A DNA stretch of 64,000 nucleotides from Lusitaniella coriacea LEGE 07157 (GTDB taxonomy: Bacteria > Cyanobacteriota > Cyanobacteriia > Cyanobacteriales > Spirulinaceae). Made by a program: the position numbers and the translations under genes. The notes beneath the pieces are model-generated. The model was given only the letters and a program-made list of their open reading frames with translations. It searched no databases and was not told where the DNA came from. The stretch is taken from contig NZ_JADEWZ010000005.1 of NCBI RefSeq assembly GCF_015207425.1, positions 1-64,000 of the forward strand, written 5' to 3'. This document shows positions 5,007 to 56,574 of the stretch, piece after piece. Position 1 is the first letter of the stretch. Every line of letters starts with the position of its first letter.

Positions 5007-5492
5007 TTAGAGGAGTCCCCCAATCAAATAGTCAAAGTAGGAGGCTGCTTCGCTAGCATCTGACCCGGACATCATTGAGGTAGCCACATTCTTCATCTCG
5101 CGAACGCCTTCAGCAAGAGCGTCTAAGGAAGTTCCTAGAGACTTGTACATTTCTTTCGCACCAATTAAACCGATTTCTTCAATTGGCGTTACATCACCTG
5201 CAACAATTCCGTAGGTTACGAGGCGCAGGTAGTAGTCCATATCGCGCAAGCAACTGGCTGTCATTTCTTCGCCGTAGGCATTGCCACCAGGAGAAACGAT
5301 ATCAGGGCGCTTCTGGAAAAGTCTATCGCCTGCTTCTTTCACGATGCGTTCGCGAGAACCCGTTAAGGCTTCAGCAATCCGCAAGCGACTTTCACCACTG
5401 TTAACAAAAGCTTTGATTCTATCAAGTTCGCCAGGGCTAAGATAGCGAGCCTCGGCATCGGCATTCACGATTGATTTCGTGACAATACTCAT
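5007..5492 (-). CDS. apcA: Allophycocyanin alpha subunit
   Basis: This is the 161-residue core phycobiliprotein alpha chain starting [18 protein letters not shown]. The chromophore Cys is residue 81 ([19 protein letters not shown]). An in-frame TTG fifteen bases upstream opens a longer frame, but that TTG overlaps the GGAGGA ribosome site of the true ATG (5490-5492), so the shorter start is correct. It lies between apcE and apcB. A hairpin between apcE and apcA suggests apcAB also has its own promoter, which would suit its higher stoichiometry. Confidence 0.98.
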
Positions 5493-5679
5493 GGATTCCT
5501 CCAACAAAAAAAAGTCAAACCAGATGAGATTAAACTGGCGTTTGATTAAAGTAGGCTTTTGGAGTTCGTTTGAAAAATTGAACGACTCGACAACCTTCCG
5601 GATTTATTGTGCGGCATTTCGTTCACCTTCTTTATGAATGCTTAATAGTTTTTAACATTTACACTCATTTTGATGATTT

Positions 5680-5712
5680 AAACGAAAATCTCCCTAATTT
5701 GATTAGGGAGAT
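5680..5712 (-). terminator. Terminator between apcE and apcA
   Basis: A perfect 10-bp inverted repeat, ATCTCCCTAA/TTAGGGAGAT at 5688-5712 with a 5-base loop, is followed on the minus strand by TTTCGTTTAAA. It lies about 130 bases past apcE and 190 bases before apcA. The rest of the 350-base apcE-apcA gap probably holds the strong apcAB promoter; I see no gene in it. Confidence 0.75.
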
Positions 5713-5844
5713 CGATCTCAAAGACTCATCACTTAAGACTTTGAGGCAGAGAGCAAATCATCGACGAACCTCAATTCGCGTGAAAATTCACCACTCTTCT
5801 ACCCATTATGTTTTTTGTAAGTGATGACATTTTGAGTACGTTGA

Positions 5845-8878
<3,034 letters not shown>

Positions 8879-51484: not shown

Positions 51485-52555
51485 ATGAGTGAAAATCATC
51501 CGTCTCAACTTTCTGAAGAGACTGCCCAAACCCTGCTGTTGCAGTTGCGACGCAAGGAAGGAACATGGGTGGATTGGGGAAAAGCTTGCCACCAACTCCA
51601 AAAGGCGGGTTATCTCACAGCGCAGATTTTTGAGGAGACGGGTTTTGAGGGAAGTCAGCAAAATCTTGTTATCGTTGCAGCGCAGGTGTATGAGAGTTTG
51701 ACGAAGGTGGATGCGTCTGAGGCGCTTCTGAGTTACTGTCGCGGACCCCGTAGCGATGTATTGTATGAGTTTCGCATCCTCGGTCAGTCGCAACGCCTAG
51801 CGGCGGCAAAGTTGGCGATGGAAAAGCAGTTGGATGTGGACGATGCAAAGGAGGTGGCGCGGGCAATTAAGCAGTTTTCTCGCTTTTCGCGTTCCCCAGA
51901 AGGGTTTTCTTCGGATCCCGGCGACGCGGTGGCGTATCAGTGCTGGCAAAGGGCGCGGTCAAAAAAAGACCTACAGGCGCGATCGCGCCTCATTGCCAAG
52001 GGATTAAGATTTGCTCAATCCTCCACCGCCAGAGAACGAATCGAGCAGCTTCTGAGCGATTTTACGGTGGTTTCAGCCCAACGCGCTCCCCTCCTTCCCT
52101 TATATCGCTTGCAAGAGGAAGAACAAATTCCCCGAGTCATTCCAGTAGCGGGAGAAATGCCCCTCACTCCCAAAGATATCGAAGCCATCGCGAAAGTTGA
52201 AAAAATCGAACCCTTTGGGATGGTTCAATATTCCGGTAGCGGTGCTTACGTTCCCATTCCCGGTTGGCAAGCGGTTTTGAGGGCAGAAGACCCCGTCGCC
52301 CTGTTCTGCAATAGCGATCGATTGCCCGACGCAGAAGTCCGTTCCTTTGAACGAGTCGCGATTGTGGTAGATCGAGATGCGAAAGAGTGGGATGCAAACA
52401 GTTATTTTCTCGTGGAACAAGAAGGGGAATTGGATATTCAATGGTTTCCCGAAGCACCCAAATTCCCCATTCTCGGTCAAGTTATTGTGATTTTGCGTCC
52501 CAAGCGGATTCTCGATGAGGATAATTTGATGGAGCCGTGGCAAATGGATGATTGA
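51485..52555 (+). CDS. raf1: Rubisco accumulation factor 1
   Basis: The 356-residue chaperone stabilises RbcL dimers during Rubisco assembly. It matches Raf1 in length and layout: N-terminal helical domain (about 1-200; TLLLQLRRKEGTWVDWGKAC, EALLSYCRGPRSDVLYEFR), linker, and C-terminal beta-rich dimerisation domain (PVAGEMPLTPKDIEAIAKVE to the end). ATG 51485. rbcL/rbcS are not in this window. The next gene, a Ser/Thr kinase, starts 72 bases on. Confidence 0.95.
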   Translation: MSENHPSQLSEETAQTLLLQLRRKEGTWVDWGKACHQLQKAGYLTAQIFEETGFEGSQQNLVIVAAQVYESLTKVDASEALLSYCRGPRSDVLYEFRILGQSQRLAAAKLAMEKQLDVDDAKEVARAIKQFSRFSRSPEGFSSDPGDAVAYQCWQRARSKKDLQARSRLIAKGLRFAQSSTARERIEQLLSDFTVVSAQRAPLLPLYRLQEEEQIPRVIPVAGEMPLTPKDIEAIAKVEKIEPFGMVQYSGSGAYVPIPGWQAVLRAEDPVALFCNSDRLPDAEVRSFERVAIVVDRDAKEWDANSYFLVEQEGELDIQWFPEAPKFPILGQVIVILRPKRILDEDNLMEPWQMDD

Positions 52556-52627: not shown

Positions 52628-53641
52628 ATGGTTTGGAAACCCGGAAAGCAGTTGCACGAGAATCAATACACGATACAGCGCGTGTTAGGGCGAGGGCGTT
52701 TTGGCGTGACGTATTTGGCACGCGATCGCGATAATATTCCTATTGCGATTAAAACGCCCAATCCAGAAACCCTCAGTCAACCCGAATTTGAACGACTGCA
52801 AGCGGTGTTTGTCACCGAAGCGGTTAAGTTGGCGAAGTGCCAACACCCTCACATCGTCACCACCGAAGAACCTTTCCAGGAAGAGGGAATTTGGTGCATT
52901 GTGATGGAATATATCGACGGGGTTGACCTTGCCAGTCGCGCCCAAGCCATTTTACCGGAAGCCGAAGCGCTGCAATACATTCAACAAATTGGCGAGGCGT
53001 TGATTGAAGTCCATGAAAATAACTTGTTGCACCGCGATATTCGACCGGGGAATATTATGGTACGGGCGGGAAAAGCCGAAGCCATCCTCATTGATTTTGG
53101 CTTGGCGATGGATTTTGACAACGAATTAAGCGTTACGCGAACCGAAGAGATAATGAAGGGTTTCGCCCCAATTGAATTGTACGCGCGATCGTCACAGCGC
53201 GGTGCGTACACGGATATCTACGCATTGGGTGCAACGCTGTACGTTCTCTTGACAGGAAAAACACCTGCGGGTGCGGACGAACGCCAAATGTCCGGAGTTA
53301 AACTCATTCCACCCAAGGAGCATAATCCCGCCATTAGCCGTAAAATAAATCGTGCAATTCTCTGGGCGATGGAATTGGACGCGAATCAACGTCCTCAATC
53401 GGTGCAAGAGTGGTTAAAAGACGGTTTGGATTTGGAGATCGATCCTGCTGCAATTCAGCAATCTTCAAACACAGAACAAACAACCGTTTCTAAACCCAAA
53501 ATTGAAACCTGGAAATTAGTCATCGCAGGAATTGCTGCACTCGGCGCTCTCTTAGCAGGATTGTCGGGACTTGCCGATCTTTTTGATAGTTTGAAACCCG
53601 ATAATTCTCCCCCACCGCCTGCCAATTCTTCACCTAATTAA
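52628..53641 (+). CDS. Serine/threonine protein kinase with C-terminal membrane anchor
   Basis: The 337-residue Hanks-type kinase has glycine loop GRGRFGVTY (21-29), Lys42, HRDIRPGN (catalytic Asp137) and DFG (Asp156). A single membrane helix follows at about 297-317 and then a short Pro-rich tail. There is no sensor domain. It precedes the kinase-FGE gene at 53775 and the two are paralogues over the kinase domain; they may form a cascade or one may be the truncated relative of the other. Confidence 0.93.
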   Translation: MVWKPGKQLHENQYTIQRVLGRGRFGVTYLARDRDNIPIAIKTPNPETLSQPEFERLQAVFVTEAVKLAKCQHPHIVTTEEPFQEEGIWCIVMEYIDGVDLASRAQAILPEAEALQYIQQIGEALIEVHENNLLHRDIRPGNIMVRAGKAEAILIDFGLAMDFDNELSVTRTEEIMKGFAPIELYARSSQRGAYTDIYALGATLYVLLTGKTPAGADERQMSGVKLIPPKEHNPAISRKINRAILWAMELDANQRPQSVQEWLKDGLDLEIDPAAIQQSSNTEQTTVSKPKIETWKLVIAGIAALGALLAGLSGLADLFDSLKPDNSPPPPANSSPN

Positions 53642-53774: not shown

Positions 53775-55874
53775 GTGCCAAAATGGGGTCAGCCTACGGA
53801 AAACTACGCACTCATGGACTGGCAGCCAGAGCATCAGCTTCAAAACGGGAAATACATAATCAAGGAAGTTCTGGGAAAAGGAGGATTTGGGGTTACTTAT
53901 AAAGCACTGCTCAATCCCCTGAACGAGCAAGTCGTTATTAAAACAACCTACGAATACCGTAAAAACAGCTCAACTTACGATCAATATGTGCAGCAATTCG
54001 AGCGAGAGGGGCAAAAGATGGCGCAACTCTCTGGCGAGTTTCATCCGCATATCGTTCGGGTGCGCGATTGGTTTGTGGAGGATGAGAAACCTTATCTGGT
54101 AATGGATTTCGTGCCGGGAAAGGATTTATTTAAGGTCGTGCGCAGCAAGGGAAGATTGCCGGAAGCGGAGGCGATAGGCTGTATTCAACAGATTGGGGAT
54201 GCGTTGGTGACGAGCCATCACATGGGATTGGTGCATCGAGATATTCACCCCGGTAACATTATTTTGCGACGGAAGAGCCATGCAGTTTTGATTGATTTTG
54301 GTTTGGCGAAAGAGATTGTTCCTTCTACCATCAGTTCGACAGGGATTGGGGGAAATCGCGGTTTTGCGCCTTACGAACAATTGGTGCGCGGTAGCCGAGA
54401 ACCAAATGTGGATGTGTATGGTTTGGCAGCAACTTTATATTATGTGGTAACGGGTCAATGTCCTCTAGATTCCTATACGCGAAAGATCGATGATTTCCCA
54501 TTGATTGCACCCCAGGAAATCGTTCCTCACCTCAGCAAGCGGTTAAATGAAGCGATTGTGCAAGGGATGGCGTTGGAAGCGAAAGATCGCCCACAGTCGA
54601 TGCAAGACTGGTTGAGGTTGCTGGAAGCACCGCGAGAGACTGTAACTCCTGTAGAAACGCCTTCACCGCCAAGTCCGCCACCTGCACCCGCTAGAACTGA
54701 ACCGAAAGAAAGGAATGCACCGCCTTCAGAAACACCCAAAGCCGTCTTGCCACCAAACCCAACACCCACACCCAAAAAAGCTGTTTCTCGAAAAAAAATA
54801 ACACCAAAGCCTGTCTCACCTAAGCCAGCGAGAACTGTGCAGAGAAATTCGCCTCCTCAGAGAGTAAGGGGAAATGTAACGCGAGCAAAGTTTCTCAGAT
54901 GGTTGGGATTTGGGAGTGCGGGAATCGTGATAACGATTGTTGCGGGTTCGCTGTTGTCGAGAGAGTCCGATACAAGTCCAGATGTAGATACAAGTCCAGA
55001 CATTGACTTCAACGATCTTCCCAACCTTCCCGACTCAGCAAGTGCTTTTGAATTTGAGGCTGTAACAGTGAATAACAAGGGTGAGATTGTTAAACGCCAA
55101 TCTCACCAAGCAAAGTCTTTTGCCGAAGATTTGGGTAGTGGGGTCAAGTTAGAGATGGTTGCGATTCCAGGCGGTACATTTTGGATGGGTTCACCGGAAG
55201 GAGAGGGATTTGATAGTGGGAAGCCACAGCATGAAGTGAGCGTCACACCTTTCTTTATCGGTAAATACGAAGTTACTCAGGAACAGTGGAAAGCCGTTGC
55301 TGCACTACCAAAAATCGAGCGCGACTTAGAACCAGACCCATCTTCTTTTAGAGGAGCAAAGCATCCGGTAGAGCGTGTTTCCTGGTACGACACAGAAGAA
55401 TTTTGTAAGCGGTTATCGAAACAGACAGGACATGAATATCGACTTCCCAGCGAGGCGGAGTGGGAGTACGCTTGTCGTGCGGGGACGACAACCCCTTTTC
55501 ACTTTGGTGCAACTCTAACCGATCAATTAGCCAATTATGATGCTAGCGAAATCTATGCCAACGAACCAAAGGGGGAATATCGCCAACAGACGACAGAGGT
55601 TGGAAGTTTTCCCTTCAATGCTTTTGGTGTGTACGATATGCACGGAAATGTCTGGGAATGGTGCGCTGACCATTGGCACGATAATTATAATGGAGTGCCT
55701 AACGATGGAACTATATGGCTAAGTAGTAATGAAGATGGCGCTCGCCTGCTGCGGGGTGGTTCTTGGGACTACTATCCTAGGTGCTGCCGTTCCGCGAGTC
55801 GCTATTGGGACTATCCGGGTAGCCGCAGCTACGCTATCGGTTTTCGGGTTGCGTGCGTGGCGGCGAGGACTTAA
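53775..55874 (+). CDS. Serine/threonine kinase fused to an FGE-sulfatase (C-type-lectin fold) domain; DGR target protein
   Basis: The 699-residue protein reads: kinase (about 25-285; GKGGFGVTY, Lys56, HRDIHPGN with Asp156, DFG Asp174), Pro-rich linker (290-365), one membrane helix (about 375-395), then an FGE-sulfatase/SUMF1-type domain (about 453-699; GGTFWMGSPEGE, EVTQEQW, RLPSEAEWEYACRAGT, NVWEWCADHW, LLRGGSW, GFRVA). The predicted layout is a cytoplasmic kinase and an exposed sensor. The last 42 codons hold a DGR variable repeat (see 55745-55867). The frame opens at GTG 53775; ATG 53814 (MDWQPEHQLQNGKY) fits related kinases better and may be the true start. FGE domains of this type are known DGR targets. 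Confidence 0.93.
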   Translation: MPKWGQPTENYALMDWQPEHQLQNGKYIIKEVLGKGGFGVTYKALLNPLNEQVVIKTTYEYRKNSSTYDQYVQQFEREGQKMAQLSGEFHPHIVRVRDWFVEDEKPYLVMDFVPGKDLFKVVRSKGRLPEAEAIGCIQQIGDALVTSHHMGLVHRDIHPGNIILRRKSHAVLIDFGLAKEIVPSTISSTGIGGNRGFAPYEQLVRGSREPNVDVYGLAATLYYVVTGQCPLDSYTRKIDDFPLIAPQEIVPHLSKRLNEAIVQGMALEAKDRPQSMQDWLRLLEAPRETVTPVETPSPPSPPPAPARTEPKERNAPPSETPKAVLPPNPTPTPKKAVSRKKITPKPVSPKPARTVQRNSPPQRVRGNVTRAKFLRWLGFGSAGIVITIVAGSLLSRESDTSPDVDTSPDIDFNDLPNLPDSASAFEFEAVTVNNKGEIVKRQSHQAKSFAEDLGSGVKLEMVAIPGGTFWMGSPEGEGFDSGKPQHEVSVTPFFIGKYEVTQEQWKAVAALPKIERDLEPDPSSFRGAKHPVERVSWYDTEEFCKRLSKQTGHEYRLPSEAEWEYACRAGTTTPFHFGATLTDQLANYDASEIYANEPKGEYRQQTTEVGSFPFNAFGVYDMHGNVWEWCADHWHDNYNGVPNDGTIWLSSNEDGARLLRGGSWDYYPRCCRSASRYWDYPGSRSYAIGFRVACVAART
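55745..55867 (+). repeat. DGR variable repeat (VR) inside the FGE domain
   Basis: 123 bases aligned without gaps to the template at 56066-56188. All 15 mismatches fall at template adenines (7 to G, 7 to T, 1 to C). In protein terms residues 665-687 change: Asn becomes D, Y, Y, C, S, Y, D, Y, S, S, Y or A, and one Arg becomes Trp. Flanking blocks (22 bases at 5', 32 at 3') are identical. The 3' block is the expected initiation-of-mutagenic-homology (IMH) segment. Confidence 0.97.
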
Positions 55875-55908
55875 TTTGCCCTCTACACTCTTCCCCTCTT
55901 ACCCTTTG

Positions 55909-55922
55909 CCGCCTTACGGCGG
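55909..55922. promoter_or_regulatory. GC-rich hairpin just downstream of the VR
   Basis: CCGCC-TTAC-GGCGG, a perfect 5-bp stem with a 4-base loop (GTAA on the other strand), 42 bases past the VR. In Bordetella phage BPP-1 a small GC-rich hairpin or cruciform with a tetraloop near IMH promotes retrohoming; this could be the counterpart here. Confidence 0.5.
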
Positions 55923-56065
55923 ATCGAATTTCTTGGAAATTGTAAAGTTTTGTAAAGAGATGCGATTCTCTTTCATCTCAACCCTTATTTTAAACGAAAG
56001 ACTGCCAACAGATATTTAGTTCTCTCGCGTTGGCGAGAAGCTAGAGAAGGGGTTGGGGTATTAAA

Positions 56066-56188
56066 CCTGCTGCGGGGTGGTTCTTGGAACAACAATCCTA
56101 GGAACTGCCGTTCCGCGAATCGCAATAGGAACAATCCGGGTAACCGCAACAACAATATCGGTTTTCGGGTTGCGTGCGTGGCGGCGAG
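56066..56188 (+). repeat. DGR template repeat (TR), non-coding
   Basis: Adenine-rich near-copy of the VR, 198 bases past the VR and in the same orientation, the canonical order. Read in the VR frame it gives 12 AAY codons and 2 AGG codons, none of which can become a stop by adenine change alone. It is out of any gene. A TCTCGC/GCGAGA hairpin (56023-56038) precedes it. Canonical TRs are followed by the RT gene; here none follows. Confidence 0.95.
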
Positions 56189-56208
56189 TACTCTTCTGTG
56201 CCAGAACT

Positions 56209-56260
56209 GATAGGTGGGAATCTATCGGGCGTGCCAAGTGAAGAGTCCAAACCTCGACTC
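56209..56260 (+). ncRNA. Possible structured RNA segment after the template repeat
   Basis: Two short hairpins follow the TR: GATAG/CTATC (56209-56226) and GAGTC/GACTC (56243-56260). TR RNA needs a structured 3' flank for cDNA synthesis in the BPP-1 system; these stems are candidates. They are short, so support is weak. Confidence 0.3.
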
Positions 56261-56388
56261 CTGTGGTGTCGGCGACGATGCCCAAAAATAAACCTGAGTC
56301 AGATAGCTTGGTAGGTTCGCCGAACAGTTGTCTGGCTCTTTGCCATCATGGGCTATCTCTCCAAACCCCCTTAGAAAGCAGTGGCGCT

Positions 56389-56574
56389 AATGAATTACGC
56401 CTAATGTGAATTAGAATCACCAAACCCGCATTCTACTGTACTATCTCCCCTCTCCCAATATTGGGAGAGGTCGGAACGCCTCTGAGGTTTCCTCAGAGGA
56501 CGCAAGCCGACCTTAAGGGGCTGGGGGAGAGGGCTTACAGGGCTTCTGGGTAATATACATTAAACGTGAATTTA
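56389..56574. mobile_element. MITE-like palindromic element, copy 2, with nested palindrome
   Basis: It has the same ends (CGCCTAATGTGAATTAGA at the left) and CTCTCCCAA core as the element at 2244-2380. It is longer because about 46 bases are inserted at 56471-56516: GGTCGG...CCTCTGAGG-TTT-CCTCAGAGG...CCGACC, a perfect nested hairpin. It lies 200 bases past the DGR template and 32 bases from the end of the truncated gene at 56606. Confidence 0.75.

Follow-up and report, generated by a model that had tools for sequence, protein, structure and literature searches.

How does a variable repeat come to agree with its template when no enzyme able to copy one into the other is encoded nearby? The question is raised by a locus in the window, that is, the whole stretch of 64,000 nucleotides analysed here (Lusitaniella coriacea LEGE 07157, contig NZ_JADEWZ010000005.1), where the two repeats of a diversity-generating retroelement (DGR) adjoin each other at the end of a kinase gene. 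A tblastn search (E 1e-3) of the surrounding 19 kb found neither a reverse transcriptase (RT) nor Avd, with the exception of a remnant of the 3′ end of an RT gene.

The repeat pair and its target gene

The variable repeat (VR, 55745–55867, plus strand) forms the 3′ end of the target gene and aligns without gaps over 123 bases with the template repeat (TR, 56066–56188, plus strand). The two differ at 15 of the 28 TR adenines and at none of the 95 other bases; the probability that all 15 differences fall on the 28 adenines is 5e-12 if they are random over the 123 sites. Seven substitutions are A to G, seven A to T and one A to C, and 13 adenines are unaltered. In the VR frame, every AAY codon of the TR (12 of 12) is altered, as is one of the two AGG codons (to TGG). 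Both the adenine-only pattern and the codon changes had been put forward in a preliminary description of this DNA and were reproduced here, and the locus carries a genuine DGR VR/TR pair. No further copy with more than 60 matches at the 95 non-adenine sites was found anywhere in the window, nor was a promoter consensus found between VR and TR.

The 5′ edge of the homology is uncertain by a few bases, as the TR has AAA there. At the 3′ edge, the first base beyond the identity is G in the VR (55868, plus strand) and T in the TR (56189). The same position reads G in the VR and C or T in the TR in 57 of 71 VR/TR pairs from the loci around the at least 80 spacer RNAs described below, and could possibly serve as a one-base mark distinguishing target from template. 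A candidate target-site hairpin or cruciform, CCGCC-TTAC-GGCGG (55909–55922, plus strand), lies 41 bp past the VR. With its 5 bp stem and TTAC loop at this distance it falls outside the phage consensus quoted in the available part of PMC3240598, in which target hairpins have stems of 7–10 bp, GRNA loops and distances of 4–34 bp from the VR. A GC-rich stem with a four-base loop was nevertheless present downstream of five of eight FGE genes inspected in this genome (the window gene, both genes on contig C54, that on C11 and the relic on C48), and was not found downstream of those on C17, C56 and C10. Further along, positions 56430–56545 of the window hold a dispersed intergenic repeat with 48 full or partial matches genome-wide, one of them beside the dead DGR on C48; it is probably unrelated to the DGR.

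The target gene (53775–55874, plus strand) encodes 699 aa comprising a Ser/Thr kinase, a hydrophobic helix and an FGE domain. A profile search places the Pkinase domain at residues 27–240 (E 1e-37), with the kinase motifs GKGGFG, HRD and DFG all present, and the FGE-sulfatase domain at the C-terminal residues 460–693 (E 1e-57). Residues of about 376–395, between the two domains, are hydrophobic (hydropathy 1.84 over 19 residues). These results bear out the preliminary description, which had the VR at the C-terminus of an FGE/C-type-lectin domain and a membrane helix between this domain and the kinase. Among proteins of solved structure, PvdO (E 1.5e-41) and Treponema variable protein 1 (PDB 2y3c, E 1.2e-22) are closest in sequence, and the VR is predicted to be borne by a C-type-lectin/FGE fold. 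Kinase-CLec targets are known among cyanobacterial DGRs, and control of kinase activation by the diversified domain has already been put forward in print (both in the available text of PMC7517822). The proposal of the preliminary description, in which the diversified surface would tune the choice of ligand that triggers the kinase, corresponds to this published hypothesis. VR diversification may likewise affect kinase signalling by the present target. Directly upstream of it lie the gene for Raf1, a Rubisco accumulation factor (51485–52555), and a second Ser/Thr kinase gene (52628–53641).

The reverse transcriptase and the two templates

What could be the source of the enzyme? In the genome assembly (5.86 Mb, 114 contigs, 99.96% complete), an RVT_1 profile search identified two RTs, on contigs C54 and C14. 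The RT on C14 is retron-like, below the cut-offs, and has no match to the C54 RT at E 1e-20; the C54 RT is the sole DGR-type RT found in the genome. It is 367 aa long, reads IGNLTSQ and YVDD, and is 61–74% identical to 19 RTs having a TR and a spacer RNA nearby, while no DGR RT model of NCBIfam scored above its cut-off for this protein. The adjoining gene encodes Avd (bAvd PF22296, E 1e-19; NCBIfam DivGenRetAVD, E 7e-38, above cut-off), and C54 contains a complete DGR in the order FGE gene with VR, Avd, RT, TR, spacer RNA, second FGE gene with VR. The preliminary description had placed a DGR at the window locus and suggested a genome search for a DGR-type RT. Its VR/TR pair stands, but the element is incomplete: RT and Avd are absent, and the one DGR-type RT that the search revealed is on C54, beside a different template.

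Outside the window, two partial matches to the repeats occur in the genome, on C54 (79% over 101 bases, the TR of the DGR just described) and on C17 (73%). The FGE gene on C17 was rejected as a VR of either template, matching only 78 of 95 non-adenine sites of the window TR and 67 of 94 of the C54 TR. Since C54 combines RT, Avd and a TR of such similarity, one could suppose that its template writes the window VR and that the window TR is a bystander copy. This is refuted by the non-adenine sites: the window VR agrees with the window TR at 95 of 95, whereas agreement with that of C54 drops to 62 of 94, and therefore the TR at 56066–56188 must have been its template. We assign virtually no probability to the alternative. 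For their part, both VRs on C54 were tested at 80 non-adenine sites and are identical to the TR of that contig at every one; the target on C11 agrees with that TR at 88 of 94, the uncertain 5′ edge included. Judging from these comparisons, the two templates of the genome are orthogonal, each matching its own VRs. Contig C48 holds a dead DGR. Its FGE gene precedes an avd that is truncated and interrupted by an in-frame stop, and a search of 11 kb revealed no RT.

The RNA module and compact loci in other genomes

Just 3′ of the TR lies a structured spacer RNA resembling RT-14 (56183–56349, plus strand), supported by its Rfam match, by covariation and by our covariance model R1. The match to RF02921 (RT-14) at 56191–56338 is full-length, but with 45.7 bits (E 1.9e-4) it remains 2.4 bits under the gathering score of 48.1, a threshold passed by loci in two other genomes. 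The consensus of 20 sequences (the window and 19 RT-associated RNAs) has 37 pairs, 29 of them with double-sided changes. Model R1 was built from 20 of the 21 aligned spacer sequences, with G048 left out, and scores the window spacer at 142.8 bits and the C54 spacer at 153 bits, both being among its 20 rows. We count the fit of both spacer RNAs to one model in favour of service by the C54 enzyme. R1 recovered all 20 RT-associated RNAs, of which 19 were model rows, so only G048 is an independent case.

A search of 99 genomes with RF02921 detected 5 loci; the window was not among them, nor were most of those subsequently matched by R1. Applied to 99 related genomes, R1 detected at least 36 loci, spread over 28 of them, and across 386 genomes from the phylum it detected at least 59, in 36 genomes; the union of at least 80 loci, like its parts, is a lower bound, as at most 29 and 7 candidates, respectively, were scored per genome. 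Searches for the spacer RNA by exact DNA patterns recovered 15–42 of the 80 loci, and such patterns were not used for a collection scan. Plasmid searches returned 14 and 5 records with matches, which are cyanobacterial.

On the 5′ side, the TR is preceded by the hairpin TCTCGC-GTTG-GCGAGA (56023–56038, plus strand), which has a counterpart in RT-less and RT-bearing loci alike; in complete loci it sits at the 3′ end of the RT gene. Across 24 loci, picked from the 80 for having this layout, five of the six pairs are standard in 21–24 loci and the sixth in 11, and compensatory changes are seen in three of the five well-kept pairs. A blind scan for stems of at least six pairs found them in 7 of 16 compact loci (defined below) and 14 of 40 RT loci, as against 10.5% and 7.6% of shuffled sequences.

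How common is a template without an RT? Within 3 kb, 43 of the 80 spacer loci are accompanied by an RT match at least 300 aa long, which we call intact (G380:C32 belongs to this class and has internal stops), 3 by a shorter one and 34 by none. Of the VRs found in RT-bearing loci, most precede the TR by 1.6–2.2 kb or follow it at about 1 kb. In 15 of the 34 RT-less loci, from 15 genomes and including the window, the VR lies 314–536 bases upstream of the TR, a layout that we refer to as compact. Another 9 are FGE genes running directly into the spacer RNA, and the remaining 10 fit neither layout; among these, one has its VR 5.7 kb off, two are weak model matches and one is cut off by the end of its contig, next to the beginning of an avd gene. 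An additional compact locus, L224, came from 12 spacer loci on named contigs. In the 15 compact loci pooled, 181 of 361 adenines and 25 of 1274 other sites differ, the choice of VRs by at least 80% non-adenine identity favouring a low count of the latter. All ten compact-locus targets that were scanned have a C-terminal FGE domain, combined with a caspase in six, a kinase in three and NACHT in one (a match just below the Pfam cut-off).

These loci bear on a rival explanation, namely that an RT-bearing copy of the window locus is missing from the assembly or present in other cells. The division of the assembly into 114 contigs is compatible with such an artefact, and intact and RT-deleted variants of one locus co-occurred in DGR 7 of Thiohalocapsa, according to the available part of PMC10907252. 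However, the window locus lies within a 210 kb contig, and the same layout occurs in one- or two-contig assemblies (G068, G345, G306, G182 and G292, with stretches of N in G345), which makes us regard an artefact as quite improbable. In the single contig of G068, one DGR RT is located 1.4 Mb from the compact locus, where none of 82 non-adenine sites differs.

Probable loss of the reverse transcriptase and proposed homing in trans

The remnant of the DGR RT gene in the window (56004–56050, plus strand) is in the RT frame, and its stop codon (56042–56044) is at the same place as in DGR RT genes. Its best match is the RT 3′ end of G138:C66, with a score of 54 (shuffled mean 22.1, sd 3.0, z 10.6). 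An in-frame remnant with a matching stop makes deletion of avd and RT from a once complete DGR the most likely history of this locus. The notion that every compact locus carries such a remnant was rejected, as z exceeds 4 in only 4 of 16 (the window, G068, G013 and G132:C1b). A single origin of the compact class is likewise unsupported. The compact loci are not one clade in the spacer tree, which covers 66 of the 80 loci with unsettled bootstrap and needs 8 changes for its 16 compact rows, at least 2 of them forced by starred branches. In two complete DGRs, L218 (Elainella saxicola E1, 5136–8106) and G306:C1a, the VR precedes the TR by just 306 or 358 bases, with the RT upstream of the VR-TR unit in L218 and avd and RT downstream in G306:C1a; the latter has the compact order of VR, TR and spacer inside a complete DGR. 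Both layouts are possible progenitors of the compact cassettes.

Is the window VR still being rewritten? It might instead be a frozen relic of a recent RT deletion, in which the agreement between VR and TR reflects too little time for neutral change. The RT remnant points to deletion, the dead DGR on C48 resides in the same genome, and decayed compact loci do exist (12 of 84 non-adenine sites differ in G132:C1b and 6 of 89 in G153). In addition, all3226 of Nostoc sp. PCC 7120, which like the window has TR-VR homology without a nearby RT, is described as a remnant in the available text of PMC7517822, which does not mention its RNA. VR/TR agreement over about 85 sites would persist for some time after RT loss. 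An intact cyanobacterial-type DGR RT is present in 6 of the 15 compact-locus genomes, and no intact DGR RT was found in the other 9 (one of which, G060, is 87% complete); four of the six loci in genomes with an RT are free of non-adenine differences, as are four of the nine others, so that TR/VR agreement does not clearly depend on the presence of an RT. Recent genome-wide RT loss could explain the nine genomes, and could equally have left the window pair frozen.

Evidence against a frozen state comes from other genomes. Four related compact loci (G345, G339, G312 and G153) have VR-TR spacers 80–88% identical, and 71 of the 78 non-adenine differences between their TRs, counted pairwise and thus non-independent, are mirrored in their own VRs; with the decayed G132 locus added, the figure is 99 of 135. 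Plain gene conversion would have wiped the adenine differences too, so the simplest cause is mutagenic homing subsequent to the emergence of the compact form, which would imply that homing in the four loci continued after the RT was lost in cis. The retention of the 5′ hairpin and the spacer RNA with compensatory changes, also in other genomes, argues in the same direction. We consider a frozen relic a rather unlikely explanation of the window pair.

The reading that we prefer, with fair though not strong confidence, is that the window locus is a non-autonomous DGR cassette run in trans by the RT and Avd of C54; the recurrence of the compact layout, the RT remnant and the conserved RNA are all counted in its favour. 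An internal deletion would have removed avd and almost the entire RT gene from a complete DGR (VR gene, avd, RT, TR and spacer RNA). Beside the target gene, the 5′ hairpin, a G-rich box, the TR and the RT-14-like spacer RNA would have stayed behind as an RNA module. The RT-Avd complex encoded on C54 would recognise the shared spacer structure and copy the window template RNA with adenine errors, and the resulting cDNA would rewrite the VR of the kinase-FGE gene. Trans activity on compact cassettes is likely, and we infer that the C54 RT may use the window RNA, and may do so now.

How does this compare with known systems? The cyanobacterial kinase-CLec DGRs in the available text of PMC7517822 resemble the window in the C-terminal VR of an FGE/CLec domain with an N-terminal Ser/Thr kinase, in having remote targets, and in an RT of a cyanobacterial group. 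They are defined there by RT, TR and VR together, whereas the window TR and its RNA lack RT and Avd and belong to a recurrent compact unit. Service of remote VRs in trans has been proposed before for Thiohalocapsa PB-PSB1, where, as far as the accessible part of PMC10907252 goes, targets are thought to be served by DGR parts elsewhere in the genome; there, however, the remote VR uses the TR of another locus, while the window has its own TR and would receive RT and Avd alone in trans. The prototype DGR of BPP-1 (PMC3240598 and PMC12875486, in part) shares the TR, the structured 3′ spacer, RT and Avd, and has a hairpin past the VR to which that of the window is a candidate counterpart; in BPP-1, however, TR and RT belong to a single locus and flank the spacer. 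In a cultured cyanobacterium, a complete DGR is reported to cause adenine mutation at a low level (PMC12691664, in part). In the open-licence PMC literature searched, compact DGR cassettes that lack an RT but bring their own template RNA are not described as a recurrent class.

For DGRs in general, we lean slightly towards the existence of a recurrent non-autonomous form, in which RT and Avd have been shed more than once while a target gene and a self-contained template RNA (5′ hairpin, TR and RT-14-like spacer) are kept and served in trans by the RT-Avd complexes of other DGRs. One enzyme could then serve several mutually orthogonal templates and diversify kinases, caspase-like proteins and a NACHT protein independently of one another. 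If one RT serves several templates in trans, the DGR repertoire exceeds the counts of RT genes, and loci written off as remnants may be live. The natural deletions spared the hairpin, the TR and the spacer RNA, which marks these as a candidate portable template for targeted diversification in laboratory cyanobacteria.

Several further arrangements were observed among the spacer loci. Those sharing a VR-TR spacer differ at the N-terminus of the target, where G153 and G339 have a caspase domain but G312 and G132 a kinase; apparently, the FGE-VR-TR unit has been swapped between effectors. A 70-copy ‘DGR1 ncRNA’ has been reported and two DGRs described in Nodularia spumigena CCY9414, to which G345 possibly corresponds; the available part of PMC3610870 makes no mention of a third, compact cassette such as that of G345. 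The reported RNA probably differs from the RT-14-like spacer RNA, as only 3 of the 7 scored candidates of G345 match R1. Finally, 12 FGE genes run into the spacer RNA without a separate TR: the nine of the 34 RT-less loci (G027:C96b, G040:C1, G063:C1, G066:C7, G089:C28, G132:C1c, G347:C1, G399:C1b and G434:C57) and three on named contigs (L269, L235 and L271). Recombination between VR and TR may have removed the intervening DNA; alternatively, the mRNA of such a gene could itself be the template. The coding copies of G132:C1c and G399:C1b, rich in Asn, still resemble an undiversified TR.
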